Source: Alteromonadaceae bacterium (GTDB lineage: Bacteria > Pseudomonadota > Gammaproteobacteria > Enterobacterales > Alteromonadaceae). Taken from it: 64,000 nucleotides of DNA. Below, piece after piece: positions 4,977 to 10,582 of the stretch (positions are counted from its first letter, which is position 1; each line of letters starts with the position of its first letter). Where the stretch lies: positions 1 to 64,000 of the forward strand of contig WKFJ01000054.1 in assembly GCA_014872785.1 (NCBI GenBank), read 5' to 3'. The translations under genes were made by a program, and so were the position numbers. The notes under the pieces were generated by a model that did not search any database, was not told where the DNA came from, and worked only from the letters and a program-made list of their open reading frames with translations.

Positions 4977-5789
4977 ATGGTAAAGATATTTATAAGCTAC
5001 GCAAGGGAAGATGAAACAAATAAAAATAGTTTGATAGAGCACCTTTCTTCGCTAAAGAACAGTGGAGTAGTAAACCATTGGCATGATAGGGAGATAAACG
5101 GAGGGAGTTTGTGGGATCAAAAAATAGAAAGTGAGTTACGATCATCAAACATTGCGATTTTGCTGATAAGTTCTTCGTTCATAAGCTCTGATTATATCAA
5201 AGCTAAAGAACTCGAGATTTCCTATGAAATGGAGAAACTTGGACAACTGGTAATCATTCCAGTGATTTTGAGAGCTTGTGATTGGAAAAATTGTGAATTT
5301 TCGAGGTTCCAGGCCTACCCATCTGATGCAAAACCTGTCAAGTCTTGGGACGACACAGATGAAGCGTTCATGGATATTGTCAAAGGAATTAGAAAAGTAA
5401 TCGAAGAAGATGTCAAACACCTTAATCCTATCCAACAACATTTTAAGCTAGATCATGTTGAAATTTCAGAAAACACTAAAGATTGGCTCGAAAATACAGG
5501 GGTTAAACTGACAAATAGACGAGTTGATAAAATAAATTTAAGTGATATTTATATACCAGTAGACTTAGATTTTTCAGAAGAAGAAGATGATATTTATAGT
5601 ATCTATTGTTCAAGTAAAATAATAGATATGAACAAGAACTGTATACTTTTTGGCGAAGAGCAGCAAGGGAAAACAACTCTTCTGAAAAATATTTATAAGG
5701 AAAGTCTAAAGAAATCAACTCTTCCGATTTATGTTAATTTTTCTGGGCTAACATCATCAAATTTATCTGATTTAATTAAAAAAATATAA
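4977..5789 (+). CDS. TIR-domain STAND NTPase, N-terminal fragment (frame-disrupted)
   Basis: First part of a probable anti-phage TIR-STAND protein. Residues 1 to about 140 form a bacterial TIR domain: KIFISYAREDE at the start, a WHDREI..G..W segment, the IAILLISSSFISSDY strand, then KELE with a candidate catalytic Glu, and the CDW...KPVKSWDDTDEAF end typical of TIR-NACHT proteins. A Walker A motif GEEQQGKT lies at 226-233. The frame stops at 5787-5789 right after an A7 run (5778-5784). Adding one A there joins this frame to the next, which carries the Walker B motif. Bacterial TIR domains usually degrade NAD+ or make signalling nucleotides; that role is inferred here. The gene is much more AT-rich than its neighbours. 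Confidence 0.8.
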   Translation: MVKIFISYAREDETNKNSLIEHLSSLKNSGVVNHWHDREINGGSLWDQKIESELRSSNIAILLISSSFISSDYIKAKELEISYEMEKLGQLVIIPVILRACDWKNCEFSRFQAYPSDAKPVKSWDDTDEAFMDIVKGIRKVIEEDVKHLNPIQQHFKLDHVEISENTKDWLENTGVKLTNRRVDKINLSDIYIPVDLDFSEEEDDIYSIYCSSKIIDMNKNCILFGEEQQGKTTLLKNIYKESLKKSTLPIYVNFSGLTSSNLSDLIKKI

Positions 5790-6541
5790 GTGAACAATAT
5801 AATAATTCCGAAATTTTAATTGATAACCTTCCTGAGAAATCAATCATTCTCATCGATAATTTAGATCAGTCAAAACTTAATTCTAAACACCTTTGCCTGT
5901 TGCTAAGAAGGATAAATGATAGTTTTGAACGAGTTATAATAACATGCCACAACAACTACCATTGTTATTCTTTTGAGCTAGAAGAGCTGAGCAGTTATTC
6001 AGTAGCTAAATTTTATAACTTGGGTAATTACAAGAGAGAAGAGTTAATTAAAAAGTGGGTCTCAATTGGTGTTGAAGAAACAATATGTGACGAGGAACTT
6101 TACACTCAGTGTGATTCATTAAAACAACATTTAGATACTGTTATTAAAAAGAATATAGTCCCGTCCAGACCGATTTATGTATTGATGATTTTACAAATGT
6201 TTGAGGCGACCGCAAAACAAAATATTGAGTTAACTTCATATGGTCATTGCTATCAAAGCTTTATTTATAAGTCATTCGAAGATAATGATATTAGTTTTTC
6301 ATCATATGAAGAGTTGTTGAATGTACTGACAGAACTATCTTGGGCAATGCACAAAAATAAAGGTGTACTCAATTATCATATGCTTGACTTGTTTTGTGAG
6401 TCGTATGAAGAAGAGTACATAATAAGTGACCTACGAAAAAGTATTGACATACTGTGCAACTGTTCATTGATAGAAAAAAACAAGAAGTCTATCGGTTTAA
6501 ATACCCATATATTTATTACTTCTTCGTTGCTAAGAAATTAG
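5786..6541 (+). pseudogene. TIR-STAND NTPase, middle fragment (second frame)
   Basis: Continuation of the TIR-STAND protein in the -1 frame. Read from the crossover, it gives a stretch ending SIILIDNLDQS, a textbook Walker B strand of a STAND/NACHT ATPase, followed by LLRRINDSFERVIITCHN, the usual sensor-1 region. The rest is the helical part of the NTPase module. This order (Walker A before the break, Walker B after it) is the best evidence that the pieces are one gene. There is a TTG at 5900 but no ribosome-binding site before it, so independent translation is unlikely. The true junction with the third frame is at the A7 run 6474-6480. Sequence beyond it in this frame is out of frame. Confidence 0.72.
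6475..6481 (+). promoter_or_regulatory. In-phase A_AAA_AAC heptamer at second frame junction
   Basis: The heptamer is A-AAA-AAC with AAA (6476-6478) and AAC (6479-6481) as codons of the incoming frame. This is the canonical X_XXY_YYZ phase for -1 ribosomal slippage, and slippage there would enter the downstream frame exactly. A weak inverted repeat (AAGAAGT 6482-6488 with ACTTCTT 6518-6524) follows immediately, closer than the usual 5-9 base spacer. The same heptamer is in phase in intact lolC (1114-1120), so its presence alone does not prove slippage. Confidence 0.3.
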
Positions 6542-7593
6542 CCGAGAAATATAGTTCAGTGGAAGATGTGAGGATTGAGTTTGAAAAGCTGGTTGAGAAC
6601 TTACACAGAGAAGATTACGCAAACATATTAATATTCATAACTCACCATACTAAAGAAGTTTGGGTAATGGAAAACATTACTCAAGTCCTCAATACCTTGT
6701 TCGACAATAATGACGAAGCAAAGCTACATAAATCCGACTTTAAAAACTTAGAAGATCTTATGTTAAAGCTGTCGGATGTAGTAATTGAACAAAGAGTCAT
6801 CAAAGACGAACGTGCAAAGAAAAATAAAAAGCTTGATGAAATTGACCGAAGAGCAGAACGAGCAAGAATAGTAGAGTTAGAATCTTCTCACAATCAAAAA
6901 GAGTTTAACGAACTTGAAAGAGCTAGTGATGTGGCTGAAGAAGAAATTGACGAAGACCTAATAGAATCTCTGTCGAAGGTAAATAAGACTTTTAAGTCTA
7001 TCGAAATTGCAGGGCAGATTATTAGAAATCGACACAGTACATTGCACAAGTCCACCCTACAAAATTTGGCAAGGTGTGGTATAGATTCTGGTTTACGTTT
7101 CTTAGACTTCTTTATGAACCTAGTCGACGAAAGCAGAGAGTCGATGATTAATCTATTTGAAGAATCAGGTATTGATAATGGAGAGGACGAAAATTCAGCG
7201 CGAGAAAAAGCGAATAAGTTTTATGTACAAATGGTATTTAACATTGTCGGTGGAATTGTATTAAAAGTCGGTAATGCGATCGGTTCAAAAGAAGCATCAG
7301 TTATTTATGAAATGATTGAGAGAGAAGATAAACATGAGTCGGCTGCTATATCACTTATTCGTCTCAATATTGAGTTGCAATATAAAAGAAGCCTCAATAT
7401 TGATGAAATAAATAAGATAGTTAAAAAATATCGAGATAATATTTTTGTGGTTAGATTAATAAAAGAATTGGTAGTTCAACATATCTACATGTTTCCGGTC
7501 AAATACCAAGATAAACAAAAACTCTCTGAGATTTTAAACCTTTCGGTTAAAGGACAAAGAAGACTTGACCAAATAAAAAGAGCGAAGCAATAG
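6475..7593 (+). pseudogene. TIR-STAND NTPase, C-terminal fragment (third frame)
   Basis: C-terminal part of the TIR-STAND protein after a second -1 change at A7 run 6474-6480. The join gives EVYRFKYPYIYYFFVAKKLAE, the winged-helix-like end of many STAND NTPases. A charged coiled coil follows (KNKKLDEIDRRAERARIVELE region). The rest is an all-helical domain including TFKSIEIAGQIIRNR and GIDSGLRFLDFF, patterns seen in helical sensor regions of bacterial STAND proteins. With one A added at both runs the whole reading frame would be 872 aa (4977-7593). A GTG at 6454 opens this frame but has no ribosome-binding site. Confidence 0.7.
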
Positions 7594-7601
7594 GTTTTTT
7601 T

Positions 7602-8210
7602 ATGATTTTAGAATCCCTCAATTTGCACTACAACGAATCATTTAATAATCATCAAAAGACAATTAACAAACGCGACAAATCGTTACTAATTACTATGATT
7701 ATGACATTGTTCATAATTGTTGAGATATTTGATAGTGATTTCTTTGCTTTACTGTCGAAGGCGTATATTGAAGATAAAGCTGGATTGAAAATTAATGATT
7801 ACCTCGAAATATTTCCCCTGTTAGTTTGGTTGATTTTCACAGTATCGATTATTAAATATTGTCAACTTGTTTTACAGTGTGATGATCAAATAACGTATTT
7901 GAAATTAAAAGAAAAGCAGCTTAATGACTTATGTATGGTAAACAGTGATAACTCAACAATTACACCTGAATTATTCTCTCGTGAAAGTGGACATTATAAA
8001 TCAACTAGTAAGTTATTTAAAAGATACTTGCGAGTGTTGTTTAGGGTGATAGTACCTATTTCTTGGATGTTAACAATAATATATTATTTATATATTAATT
8101 GGAGAGTTCTTACATTAACTTTGGATATCGAAAACATAGCGATACTGGTTTTTACGTTTCTGGCGTTAATAACAATAGTTGCTTACTGTTTAGAAATGAT
8201 AACTGATTAA
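7602..8210 (+). CDS. Small multi-pass membrane protein, partner of the TIR-STAND gene
   Basis: Unrecognised 202-aa protein, as AT-rich as the TIR-STAND gene and only 8 bases after its stop, so probably co-transcribed. It has two pairs of hydrophobic segments: about 28-48 and 62-85, then about 140-162 and 172-196. A hydrophilic, Lys- and Asp-rich stretch lies between the pairs. N-terminal residues are soluble. Small membrane proteins beside NTPase sensors in defence loci sometimes act as pore-forming effectors or anchors; this is only a contextual inference. No family was recognised. No strong ribosome-binding site is seen before the ATG, which fits translational coupling. Confidence 0.68.
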   Translation: MILESLNLHYNESFNNHQKTINKRDKSLLITMIMTLFIIVEIFDSDFFALLSKAYIEDKAGLKINDYLEIFPLLVWLIFTVSIIKYCQLVLQCDDQITYLKLKEKQLNDLCMVNSDNSTITPELFSRESGHYKSTSKLFKRYLRVLFRVIVPISWMLTIIYYLYINWRVLTLTLDIENIAILVFTFLALITIVAYCLEMITD

Positions 8211-8409
8211 GTCAATGTAAAGGTTTTTGCAGCGGAATTTGGGCTGGCACCGAAAGAGTATGTAGAACAGAAAATGCAGGAAAAGAGTTAGAAAATGAAC
8301 AAGGCTATGGAATAGATATAGATGGCCTGCGCTTTGCAAAAATACACGAAATCTATCGCCTGTTTGCCGCAATTCTAGTGTTAACCCAAACGGTTAGCTG
8401 TTTGGGTTA
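8207..8409 (+). pseudogene. Possible coding remnant at right edge of island
   Basis: Base composition returns to that of the chromosome here. One frame is open from 8207 to a stop at 8410-8412 and reads protein-like (CSGIWAGTER, then GYGIDIDGLRFAKIHEIYRL), but it has no start codon or ribosome-binding site. A second frame reads FAAEFGLAPKEYVEQKMQEKS and stops at 8289. Neither was recognised. Either could be the stump of a gene cut by the arrival of the island. This is a weak call. Confidence 0.25.
8383..8408 (-). terminator. Hairpin at 3' end of the minus-strand gene
   Basis: A perfect 9-bp stem (AACCCAAAC 8383-8391 with GTTTGGGTT 8400-8408) with an 8-base loop overlaps the stop codon of the minus-strand gene. 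No T-run follows on either strand, so it is a weak terminator or a transcript-end hairpin. Confidence 0.45.
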
Positions 8410-9024
8410 TTGCTGACTGTAATACTCATACACCATTCGTAATTGTTCTTTCCAGAACTCGGTTTGCTGCTCGCGGTCGCCAATTTCACACATGAGTGTT
8501 AACTTAACGGCGTGCTCGAAAAAGTTTTGCGTAGGGATGTGCTCATTACGGCTTACCACAACGGCACTCACCATTATGCCATTGCCGCTATCAATGGTTT
8601 CGTCGAAGCTCTCATTGGCAAGTTCCATAAGCACGCGACTGCAAAATAGCCGGTCGGGTGGTGAGTCCCAGCGCATGCCGGCATCGGCGATTAAATCCGT
8701 ATAAGTCGTTAGACGCTGTTCTTTGGCAGCCTCTAATACTTTGCTGCGCAAAATTTCGCGACGTTTCGTTTTTAATATCAGCAGTCGCTTAACACCGCCA
8801 GCTTCAACACCCAAAAACGTTTTGCGTTCAGGCGTTTTTAAAAACAGGGTTTTTTCCTGCAGTTCACCATCCTCAATGCGCTTGCGAATAGTAGGCATCG
8901 TGGTTTCTAGTAGACTAATAACCCCTTGCATCGGGATAAATTCACTGGAGTCTTCTGATACTTCGTCAGACATCAAATACACGCGTAAATCTTTTGTGCG
9001 ATGGGCTTTTTCGAGTTTTGTCAT
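8407..9024 (-). CDS. Conserved-looking hypothetical protein
   Basis: Unrecognised soluble protein of 205 aa. The N-terminal half has a helix-rich stretch (IPMQGVISLLETTMPTIRKRI) that could be a small DNA-binding or excisionase-like fold. The C-terminal half (TYTDLIADAG...PDRLF, then MVSAVVVSRNEHIPTQNFFEHAV) resembles a small domain seen in many accessory-region proteins, which pairs an sAvVV strand with a P..gFF motif. That resemblance is from memory and is tentative. An internal Met at codon 18 (8973) is an alternative start; neither start has a good ribosome-binding site. It abuts the TIR-STAND island. Confidence 0.6.
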   Translation of the reverse strand: MTKLEKAHRTKDLRVYLMSDEVSEDSSEFIPMQGVISLLETTMPTIRKRIEDGELQEKTLFLKTPERKTFLGVEAGGVKRLLILKTKRREILRSKVLEAAKEQRLTTYTDLIADAGMRWDSPPDRLFCSRVLMELANESFDETIDSGNGIMVSAVVVSRNEHIPTQNFFEHAVKLTLMCEIGDREQQTEFWKEQLRMVYEYYSQQ

Positions 9025-9148: not shown

Positions 9149-9238
9149 CGTTTACTGATATTGACTTTATTGTTTGTTGTTGTCACTATCTGTGCGAGTC
9201 AAAAGGAAAATGTTGTTCAACATCACAGGAGACGACGT

Positions 9239-10150
9239 ATGAAAACTAACCTACTTAGGATGACTAAATTAGCGATTGTTTTATTGGCCGTGGCGACCTT
9301 GGCGGGTTGCTCACTATTTGGTGAAAAAGTCACTATTCCCCCAGCAAACGTGGGTAAAGTGCTAACTAAAGATGGATTTAAAACCGATACCTATGGGCCA
9401 AGTCGCTTTCGACTAGACCCTTGCATGTTTTATTGTGATCGCTTGATCACCCTTGAAACTTCGGATCAACCGAAGGTGGAAAAGTTTGCGCTGTTTATGC
9501 CAAGAGACCAGTTAAATATGGGCTTTGATTTGCGTATGACGGTAAGCATTGATGAACGTAAAGTAGACGATATCTATAATAAAGTGCCATCTGAGCGCAG
9601 TAAAATTAGCTTCGAGCGCGTTTACATGACCTATGGCCAACCTATTATTCGCGATGTTGCACGTCAAATAATGGCTGAATACAGCATCAATGAAGTGGCC
9701 AGTTCTCGTGAGCGTTTAAGTGCCCAGTTGCAAAATGAGATAGCGAAAGCACTTGTCGATACTCCTTTGAAGTTGAAGAGGTTAGGCCTAGCTGATGTGC
9801 AGTTCCCAGAAATCATTACTAAGGCAAAAGAGCAAGCCGCCGAACGTCGTGAGCAAATAGAACGCGAAAAAGCACAGTTTGAGATCCAAAAAATTCAGCA
9901 AGAACGCGAATTGGCACAAGCCAAAATGCAACGAGCTATCGATCGTGAAAAGGCGGAAGCGACAAAAGAGGTTAACGAAATCCTGTCGAAATCGGTTACC
10001 GATAAGTACTTATCGTACCGTTCACTGGAAGTACTTGAAAAGATGGCCGCGTCTGGCAATAAGGTATTCGTCCCTGTTGAGGCACTAGGTACATTGGGTC
10101 TGCAGCAAGCCGTATTCTCAGAGCAGTTAAAGAAAACTGCTGGTAAGTAG
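9239..10150 (+). CDS. SPFH/band 7 domain lipoprotein
   Basis: Predicted SPFH (stomatin/prohibitin/flotillin/HflK) family protein of 303 aa. The start is placed at the ATG at 9239, which has an AGGAG site just upstream; the in-frame extension to 9161 has none. The N-terminus is a lipoprotein signal ending in the lipobox LAGC, with Cys24 followed by Ser. The SPFH domain (about 30-190) contains VPSERSKISFERVYMTYGQ. A long charged coiled coil follows (about 195-245, Glu/Lys/Arg-rich), then a KVFVPVEALGTLG end. Most SPFH proteins are anchored by a transmembrane helix, so lipid anchoring is unusual. A small membrane protein follows 12 bases later and is probably its partner. Confidence 0.8.
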   Translation: MKTNLLRMTKLAIVLLAVATLAGCSLFGEKVTIPPANVGKVLTKDGFKTDTYGPSRFRLDPCMFYCDRLITLETSDQPKVEKFALFMPRDQLNMGFDLRMTVSIDERKVDDIYNKVPSERSKISFERVYMTYGQPIIRDVARQIMAEYSINEVASSRERLSAQLQNEIAKALVDTPLKLKRLGLADVQFPEIITKAKEQAAERREQIEREKAQFEIQKIQQERELAQAKMQRAIDREKAEATKEVNEILSKSVTDKYLSYRSLEVLEKMAASGNKVFVPVEALGTLGLQQAVFSEQLKKTAGK

Positions 10151-10162
10151 GAGGTTGAAACG

Positions 10163-10513
10163 ATGAACTATATTATTGAAGCGGCACCCGAGCTCTTAAT
10201 ATCTATTGTATTTGTAACGCTTTTGTATTTGTTAACCAAAGAAAAGCTTTCTAAAACAGCGAGGCATCGTATTTTATACGCTTATGTTGGAGGTTTAGCA
10301 GTAGCGCTGGTATTACTTTATCAGAGCGACACCAAACCAGTTAATACCTTAGACATTCAGGAAACTTTTGCGTCTACTGAAACAACGCTACCTGAGGTTA
10401 AAGACCTATCGCCGGAGACACGTTCAAGTGAGGAATCAAGTGAGCGTTTAGATAAGTTAATTGAGGAGCAAAAAGACTCGGTGTCGGTAGAAAAAGACGA
10501 TACGGGTAATTAA
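10163..10513 (+). CDS. Small membrane protein downstream of SPFH lipoprotein
   Basis: Unrecognised 116-aa protein with two membrane segments (about 8-22 and 38-52). A hydrophilic, Glu- and Ser-rich tail of about 60 residues follows. A strong GGAGG ribosome-binding site precedes the ATG, 12 bases after the SPFH gene, and a good terminator follows, so the two form a two-gene operon. The arrangement suggests that the small protein assists or anchors SPFH assemblies; this is inference from neighbourhood only. Confidence 0.7.
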   Translation: MNYIIEAAPELLISIVFVTLLYLLTKEKLSKTARHRILYAYVGGLAVALVLLYQSDTKPVNTLDIQETFASTETTLPEVKDLSPETRSSEESSERLDKLIEEQKDSVSVEKDDTGN

Positions 10514-10533
10514 AAATTAATTATACAATGCTG

Positions 10534-10582
10534 GCAGGCACTGTTTTATGCAAATTCCGCGTAATACAGTGCCTGCTTTTTT
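10534..10582 (+). terminator. Intrinsic terminator after the SPFH operon
   Basis: An 11-bp perfect stem (10534-10544 with 10566-10576, GCAGGCACTGT/ACAGTGCCTGC) is followed at once by six T. This is a clear intrinsic terminator. Confidence 0.9.

Follow-up and report, generated by a model that had tools for sequence, protein, structure and literature searches.

SPFH domes occur in all kingdoms, and the role of most of the bacterial ones is unclear. The NfeD proteins that accompany some SPFH proteins have a soluble OB-fold domain. HflK and HflC are periplasmic; 24 of their subunits build a dome at the inner membrane which modulates FtsH, and the dome of flotillin owes part of its membrane attachment to lipid modification (PMC12624060). 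A phage supplied the phenotype for which HflK/C have long been known, through the CII protein of lambda (PMC12005517). A survey of prokaryotic SPFH proteins reports predicted transmembrane regions in all but two subfamilies, which were taken as soluble, and places YbbK/QmcA on the cytoplasmic side; the words "phage" and "lipoprotein" are absent from its main text (PMC2636767).

SPFH genes of phages have been noted since at least 2006, when they were described for 44RR, Aeh1 and RB43 (PMC1524935). Since then, the gene of Alteromonas phage V22 has been recorded as a stomatin-like auxiliary gene (PMC7289586), and other phage genes have been tied to the control of lysogeny through HflK/C (PMC4936722, PMC8540360) or listed as host-metabolism genes (PMC13384950). 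An SPFH lipoprotein was reported in phage GIB1, the reason for its presence being called unclear by the authors in 2026 (PMC13239085). We found no description of the gene pair presented here in open-licence PMC papers.

Results

The SPFH protein and its anchor

The window, a stretch of 64,000 nucleotides from an Alteromonadaceae bacterium (contig WKFJ01000054.1), contains on its plus strand the gene for an SPFH lipoprotein of 303 amino acids plus stop (positions 9239 to 10150; coding part without the stop codon 9239 to 10147), which we call S, followed by a small gene called P. The first-pass annotation had chosen the start of S at 9239 for its superior ribosome-binding site, and this choice holds: the motif AGGAGA, read from the sequence at 9227 to 9232 (plus strand), lies 6 nt ahead of the ATG, nothing comparable precedes the alternative in-frame TTG at 9161, and homologues align from about the start at 9239. 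The N-terminus of the product reads MKTNLLRMTKLAIVLLAVATLAGCSLFGEK and is predicted to be a lipoprotein signal peptide ending in the lipobox LAG-Cys24 (9239 to 9310, plus strand), with a serine directly after the cysteine. Hydropathy averaged over 19 residues peaks at 2.03 within the signal and reaches at most 1.21 past residue 28, in agreement with the earlier claim that S has no further membrane segment. The protein belongs to Band_7 of Pfam (39.7 bits vs. a cut-off of 23.6) and matches the "lipoprotein" profile PHROG_200 over residues 2 to 290 (4.2e-47), whereas its score of 18.7 bits with Pfam FliL stays under the cut-off of that family. With the motif LAGC and its cysteine, kept in nearly all members, behind a short hydrophobic signal, the assignment of S as an SPFH protein with a predicted lipid anchor that faces the periplasm is supported.

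A total of 86 loci yielded 58 non-redundant members of the S family at 90% identity, with the loci L023, L032 and L033 represented by one row; L005 to L009 and L076 to L105, except L092, L094 and L097, were dropped as ordinary SPFH proteins. Cys24, already recognised as part of a lipobox in the first-pass annotation, is invariant in the 12 homologues of the alignment (12/12) and is kept in 56 of the 57 non-redundant members with a readable N-terminus, the contig-end truncated L074 being left out of the count. The family alignment has the SPFH domain starting almost immediately after this cysteine. The exception is the lineage of Comamonas denitrificans (L023, L032 and L033), in which about 18 hydrophobic residues continue without a cysteine and the partner gene is still found downstream in all three loci; among the loci read, such a helix without Cys is limited to these three. 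Relatives carrying a transmembrane helix instead of the lipobox had been named in advance as evidence against the lipid anchor, and they do exist, in this one derived lineage.

The residue following the lipobox cysteine (position +2) is Gly in 43, Ser in 8, Phe in 2 and Arg, His or Ala in one each of the 56 lipobox-bearing members, and Asp in none of them (0/56). According to the sorting rule of E. coli, a residue other than Asp at +2 directs a lipoprotein to the outer membrane. The outer-membrane location previously suggested from the serine after the cysteine is consistent with the missing Asp but appears doubtful, both because of the Comamonas helix and because the partner resembles an inner-membrane protein. 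The hydrophobic anchor speaks against the outer membrane for the Comamonas lineage at least, and the stretch could in principle be cleaved by signal peptidase I. On the basis of this lineage, we favour the inner membrane over the outer membrane for S without regarding the matter as settled.

Besides the lipobox cysteine, most members contain just two cysteines, which are Cys62 and Cys66 in the window (Cys62-x3-Cys66; 9422 to 9436, plus strand). Both are present in 45 of the 58 rows and neither in 12 (one of these being the truncated L074), and the spacing of the two is shifted in one row. This all-or-none pattern fits a probable disulfide in the oxidising periplasm, and with it a periplasmic location of S.

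Two further loci showed peculiarities of their own. At about position 6039 of L035 (Comamonas aquatica), the N-terminal part of S is apparently out of frame with the remainder, which seems to be due to a sequencing error or to decay. Locus L104 codes at about 1402 to 2271 for a chromosomal SPFH protein outside the S family with an apparent lipobox, LSAC, shortly before the SPFH domain; lipid anchors on SPFH proteins may have arisen more than once.

Predicted fold of S

The AF2 model of S (48 rows) has a mean pLDDT of 87 and a pTM of 0.65 and consists of an N-terminal helix, the SPFH1 and SPFH2 domains, a long helix of residues 191 to 252 (9809 to 9994, plus strand) and a weakly predicted C-terminus. 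Its top structural match is human prohibitin (9o9z; Z 17.1, rmsd 3.9 over 207 residues), followed by Erlin, flotillin and HflK/C among the leading matches, the last with values of Z 13.7 and rmsd 2.5 over 208 residues (9paw) and Z 13.6 and rmsd 2.9 over 230 residues (7wi3). FliL, which partly shares the fold, gives a Z of 11.2. S is thus predicted to have a full SPFH fold similar to those of prohibitin and HflK/HflC. Because the SPFH domain follows almost directly on the cysteine, and because the N-terminal helix of the model aligns to the start of the HflK/C chains, the lipid of S seems to stand in place of their transmembrane helix.

The membrane partner P

The first-pass annotation had described the next gene as coding for a two-helix protein with an acidic tail, and this description stands. 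P (10163 to 10513, plus strand; 116 amino acids plus stop, coding part without the stop codon 10163 to 10510) begins twelve bases after the stop codon of S and is assigned as a two-helix membrane partner by family alignments, predicted topology and the AF2 model. The latter contains helices at residues 3–26, 31–54, 62–70 and 89–113, with a mean pLDDT of 80.6 and a pTM of 0.36. In the tail, the motif EVKDLSPE (10394 to 10417, plus strand) takes the place of IEDRxxKP, the majority form in the family, and its Asp81 is shared by 42 of 49 downstream-type partners and invariant in the 12 sequences of a smaller alignment. P was also considered as a partner of the NfeD type and rejected as such, as it had no NfeD match at E ≤1 and its model is made up of helices without any strand.

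A two-helix-plus-tail gene is located within a few hundred bases of S in 55 of the 58 members. The rule behind this count, drawn up after examples had been seen, asks for two hydrophobic helices, a tail of at least 35 residues and either a start at most 420 bases after S or an end beside the start of S; the partner starts were picked by script and are approximate. As a control, other genes of at least 200 aa on the same strand of the same loci were tested by this rule plus at least two basic loop residues, a feature of all 55 partners, and none of the 70 had such a neighbour. With 55/58 against 0/70, chance is excluded as the cause of the pairing. By the rule, L022, L041 and L110 (3/58) are without a partner; L110 lies at a contig edge, and L022 has no long open frame in the three plus frames up to about 470 bases downstream, its helix region being shorter than in the others. 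One small gene separates S from its partner in L118, and gaps of 139 to 267 bases occur in L051, L052, L059, L062 and L094.

The loop between the two helices carries at least two basic residues in 55/55 partners, and in 53 of them it exceeds the N-terminus in positive charge; the loop of L011 has no net charge, and that of L046 is net negative. No basic residue stands ahead of the first helix in 52 of the 55. According to the positive-inside rule, such a basic loop predicts that both ends of P face the periplasm, including the tail, which is 51 to 88 residues long among the partners found by the rule. The periplasmic SPFH lipoprotein proposed in the first-pass annotation is therefore favoured by the cysteine pair, the family-wide lipobox and the tail topology, but a periplasmic SPFH dome as such is not new because HflK/HflC are periplasmic as well (PMC12624060).

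In six phages, pf16, Psa21, KPP10, RisingSun, Miami and HPP-Temi (loci L111 to L115 and L119), the two-helix gene lies immediately upstream of S. Profile searches between upstream-type and downstream-type partners gave best HMM E values of 8.5e-4 in one direction and 4.5e-3 in the reverse (Z 10,000), and hhalign aligned only 13 columns with a probability of 42. We do not claim common descent of the two types, which are alike in architecture and weak in homology. A tblastn search of P against the phage partners returned no match at E ≤0.1; P is too short and too diverged for this method, so the pairing is shown by position, architecture and alignment. P had no match at E ≤1 among the immunity-named families of Pfam, PHROGs and NCBIfam, in a search by which short membrane proteins are easily missed. 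The record of the KVP40 partner (L015, 3874 to 4233) notes a match to PF04186, a domain that is not matched by P of the window; we take PF04186 to be the FxsA family, linked to phage exclusion.

Distribution and history

The S family belongs mainly to large phages and is found in few bacterial genomes. By tblastn, S matched 140 of 50,697 phage records, a number that includes some duplicates between GenBank and RefSeq; in 136 of the 140, a single match spans 80% or more of the query. Among the 40 + 60 matches listed, the alignments start at residue 23 beside the lipobox cysteine (one at residue 28), and all records are at least 83 kb long; the names include phages of Vibrio, Pseudomonas, Aeromonas, Alteromonas, Acidovorax, Xanthomonas, Erwinia and Klebsiella. 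Several phage records of the family are already named "lipoprotein", and its members include the V22 gene and RisingSun gp131. None of 72,556 plasmid records contained S, which leaves a plasmid origin of the pair unsupported. Scans for short conserved peptides, whose counts are lower bounds, retrieved at least 39 loci of the family from IMG/VR and at least 19 from genome_contigs, the latter from Planctobacterium, Alteromonas sediminis, two Neiella, one Shewanella, a Thiopseudomonas MAG and thirteen Comamonadaceae (Comamonas, Lampropedia and Acidovorax).

As a counting model for whole genomes, PHROG_200 proved too broad, with matches in 358 of 369 genomes and in 13 of 14 controls that were mostly due to ordinary SPFH proteins, and a narrower profile was used for counting. 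The best 30 PHROG_200 matches were made into loci, of which the narrower model assigned L092 (the window's own), L094 and L097 to the S family. Profile A2 matched 3 of 394 genomes from the order and 3 of 398 from the phylum, both counts including the genome of the window itself; among the three matches from the phylum, that in G873 is fragmentary, being situated at the edge of a contig and containing an internal stop. In a separate search of 40 genomes, four, the window's own included, carry S (E <1e-150), and five more matches of 3e-6 to 1.4e-4 are short or remote. A search for the pair across marine bacteria, as recommended in the first-pass annotation, would miss the main home of the family, which is large phages.

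A tree was calculated from 58 rows, for which L074 and the contig-edge locus L110 had been removed from the 58 members and L029 and L030 added, and was rooted at its midpoint. It requires five changes between the labels phage and chromosome vs. a mean of 13.5 in shuffles. The window falls into a clade with Planctobacterium, A. sediminis, Neiella and Shewanella (support 100/96), and a Comamonadaceae clade, which includes one IMG/VR contig, is nested in phages (support 96/97). Bacteria probably captured the pair from phages; we infer this direction from the abundance of the family in phages, the root being only a midpoint.

Because dS was saturated in 19 of 21 gene pairs, dN/dS is given for the other two only. 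S is strongly conserved in chromosomes, with a dN/dS of 0.016 between Neiella litorisoli and N. marina. Between G002 and P. marinum K7, two species of Planctobacterium, its dN is 0.045 although synonymous sites are saturated. For P, the comparison of G002 with K7 gave a dN of 0.452, tenfold that of S, and the dN/dS between A. sediminis and P. marinum K7 is 0.288. In the other five pairs, the dN of P exceeded that of S by a factor of 2.5 to 3.3.

Surroundings of the pair

The intrinsic terminator common to S and P that had been claimed before is supported at 10533 to 10582 (plus strand), where a strong hairpin (10533 to 10577; −29.8 kcal/mol, z = −5.84 vs. shuffles) is followed by TTTTTT. A consensus terminator scan, which permits loops of 3 to 8 nt only, reported none at 10533 to 10577.

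Upstream of the pair, the window carries a TIR-STAND defence-type gene split into three ORFs (4977 to 7593), as judged from a PADLOC ThsB TIR match (1.1e-41) and pieces of PDC-S60. The GC content of this stretch is 30–35% vs. 41–48% on each side, and the gene ends about 1.6 kb before the pair. Between the two lies a gene for a 202-aa protein with hydrophobic stretches (7602 to 8207), and the divergent neighbour of the pair codes for a 205-aa protein (8407 to 9024, minus strand), both without a convincing family match. The 205-aa protein occurs with 77% identity at the same position in A. sediminis and in 3 of the 40 genomes searched, the own one included; perhaps this gene has moved together with S and P as a three-gene block. 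Further neighbours in the window genome are presumably the housekeeping genes rimO, prs, ispE, lolB and hemA, and the neighbours of the pair vary even within the genus. The genome contains four other SPFH genes, two of which are adjacent on contig 44 and fit hflK-hflC.

Of 227 neighbouring ORFs in the phage loci, 167 were selected, and 121 of these were scanned for function. Among the 25 most frequent of 135 PHROG and the 25 most frequent of 43 Pfam neighbour families, the commonest were T4-type baseplate proteins, RNA ligase and phosphoesterase with three occurrences each (four for Metallophos), followed by ribonucleotide reductase, PRPP synthase and nicotinamide phosphoribosyltransferase with two each. 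A cell-wall hydrolase (PF07486, one case) and the gp5 tail lysozyme of the KVP40 group were also seen, and in this group the pair lies amid baseplate genes on the other strand. Judged by these families, the role of the pair leans towards takeover and replication rather than lysis.

Discussion

We propose that S and P constitute a module captured from phages which creates a private membrane microdomain from an HflK/C-like dome of S with P docked to it, and assign this reading a probability of about 0.45. The model is taken from the HflK/C dome of 24 subunits that modulates FtsH, in analogy to which S would form the dome and P its membrane partner. S would be exported and lipidated at Cys24 and, in the manner of HflK/HflC and prohibitin, would assemble into a ring or dome that faces the periplasm, most likely at the inner membrane. 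P would reside in the inner membrane with its two termini on the periplasmic side, and the conserved tail could dock to the dome of S in a way similar to that in which FtsH contacts HflK/C through its periplasmic part. The resulting microdomain may protect or hold membrane proteins during infection by large phages and would probably divert or mimic the HflK/C-FtsH quality control of the host, a link to FtsH that is drawn by analogy alone. Bacteria might have kept their copies for the same membrane-scaffolding use. We counted in favour of the module the full SPFH model with its matches to prohibitin and HflK/C, the conserved lipobox, the pairing, which is kept when the order of S and P flips, the basic loop of P, the Comamonas lineage with a helix for the lipobox, phage neighbours such as RNA ligase, ribonucleotide reductase, PRPP synthase and nicotinamide phosphoribosyltransferase, and the strong conservation of chromosomal S. 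We counted against it that four further SPFH genes are present in the host, that P changes faster than S, which is odd for a tightly bound partner, that Asp never occurs at +2, that the KVP40 pair lies amid baseplate genes and that 3/58 members are without a partner. More doubtful, and offered only tentatively, is the fuller picture of a phage-made machine in which the tail of a two-helix adaptor is plugged into a lipid-anchored SPFH dome, and which would pass from phage to phage as a unit, have been captured by chromosomes at least twice and either take over HflK/C-FtsH or shield the inner membrane.

The strongest rival is superinfection exclusion, which we consider rather unlikely. S and P would seal or occupy the envelope against the entry of DNA from a second phage, and bacteria would keep the pair as protection. 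The exclusion proteins of the Cor type are not known to be SPFH proteins, and S and P match no PADLOC model at E ≤0.01. Such Cor-type phage lipoproteins do exclude phages (PMC4936722), which together with the occurrence of the S family mainly in large phages and patchily in chromosomes argues for this explanation. The TIR-STAND gene close upstream points the same way, but its position beside the pair is possibly due to chance, the defence scan having covered the window only.

It is improbable to a similar degree, or slightly more so, that S sits in the outer membrane with its dome directed towards the inner membrane, where it would grip the tail of P and tie both membranes together. The residues found at +2 in 56/56 lipobox-bearing members (G, S, F, R, H or A, never D) are those expected for this location, and a tail of 51 to 88 residues would be enough to cross much of the periplasm; against such a bridge, the Comamonas lineage with a hydrophobic helix for the lipobox would sit in the inner membrane, and the Pfam matches of S and P include no peptidoglycan-binding family. 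A regulator of lysis or lysis delay acting on holin or spanins, which the periplasmic position and the phage home of the pair would suit, is very improbable, given that neither holin nor spanin was among the 25 most frequent of 135 PHROG or of 43 Pfam families of the 121 neighbour proteins. Hardly to be expected is a virion or adsorption component that aids phage binding or DNA injection: RisingSun gp131 was detected in particles by mass spectrometry with one 95%-confident peptide (PMC6034870), and adsorption or entry was proposed in 2026 by the authors reporting a phage SPFH lipoprotein (PMC13239085), but one peptide is weak, the signal peptide exports S from the cytoplasm, where virions assemble, and the chromosomal copies are strongly conserved.

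Many large phages encode a lipid-anchored SPFH protein of their own, accompanied in nearly all cases by a small partner, which the annotations read do not link to it. The pair offers a compact two-gene system for asking what an SPFH dome does and may represent a phage route to controlling the membrane quality control of the host or excluding rivals, and the swap of lipid for helix provides a natural test of the purpose of the anchor.

The "lipoprotein" family PHROG_200 of phages is the S family (4.2e-47), but exists as an annotation only; for its pairing with P, its anchor swap and its chromosomal capture, open-licence PMC papers yielded no description. The SPFH lipoprotein of the Kuttervirus group (Salmonella phage PhiSH19) likewise has a lipobox directly ahead of the SPFH domain, yet represents a different subfamily (L121, 1141 to 1932, minus strand; 177 matching phage records): the 140 phage records matched by S include none of Salmonella, and neither of the two neighbours translated is a two-helix protein. 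The "superinfection exclusion" neighbour in PhiSH19 was dropped as a lead, since its product contains no hydrophobic helix on reading and gives no support.

QmcA-YbbJ, an SPFH-NfeD pair whose complex is available as 8z5g, resembles S-P in having an SPFH gene beside a gene for a membrane protein, but QmcA faces the cytoplasm and the NfeD partner has an OB-fold domain, whereas P has no NfeD match and a tail predicted to be periplasmic. Flotillin carries palmitoyl and myristoyl groups on the cytoplasmic side, whereas S is an exported N-terminal lipoprotein. HflK/HflC (SPFH3) share with S the periplasmic succession of SPFH1, SPFH2 and coiled coil behind an N-terminal anchor, but have a transmembrane helix, two SPFH paralogues next to each other and FtsH binding, whereas S has a lipobox, is a single SPFH gene and adjoins a two-helix, non-SPFH protein. 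SPFH scaffolds themselves are known; what is new here is a phage-borne, lipid-anchored one with a two-helix partner of its own.
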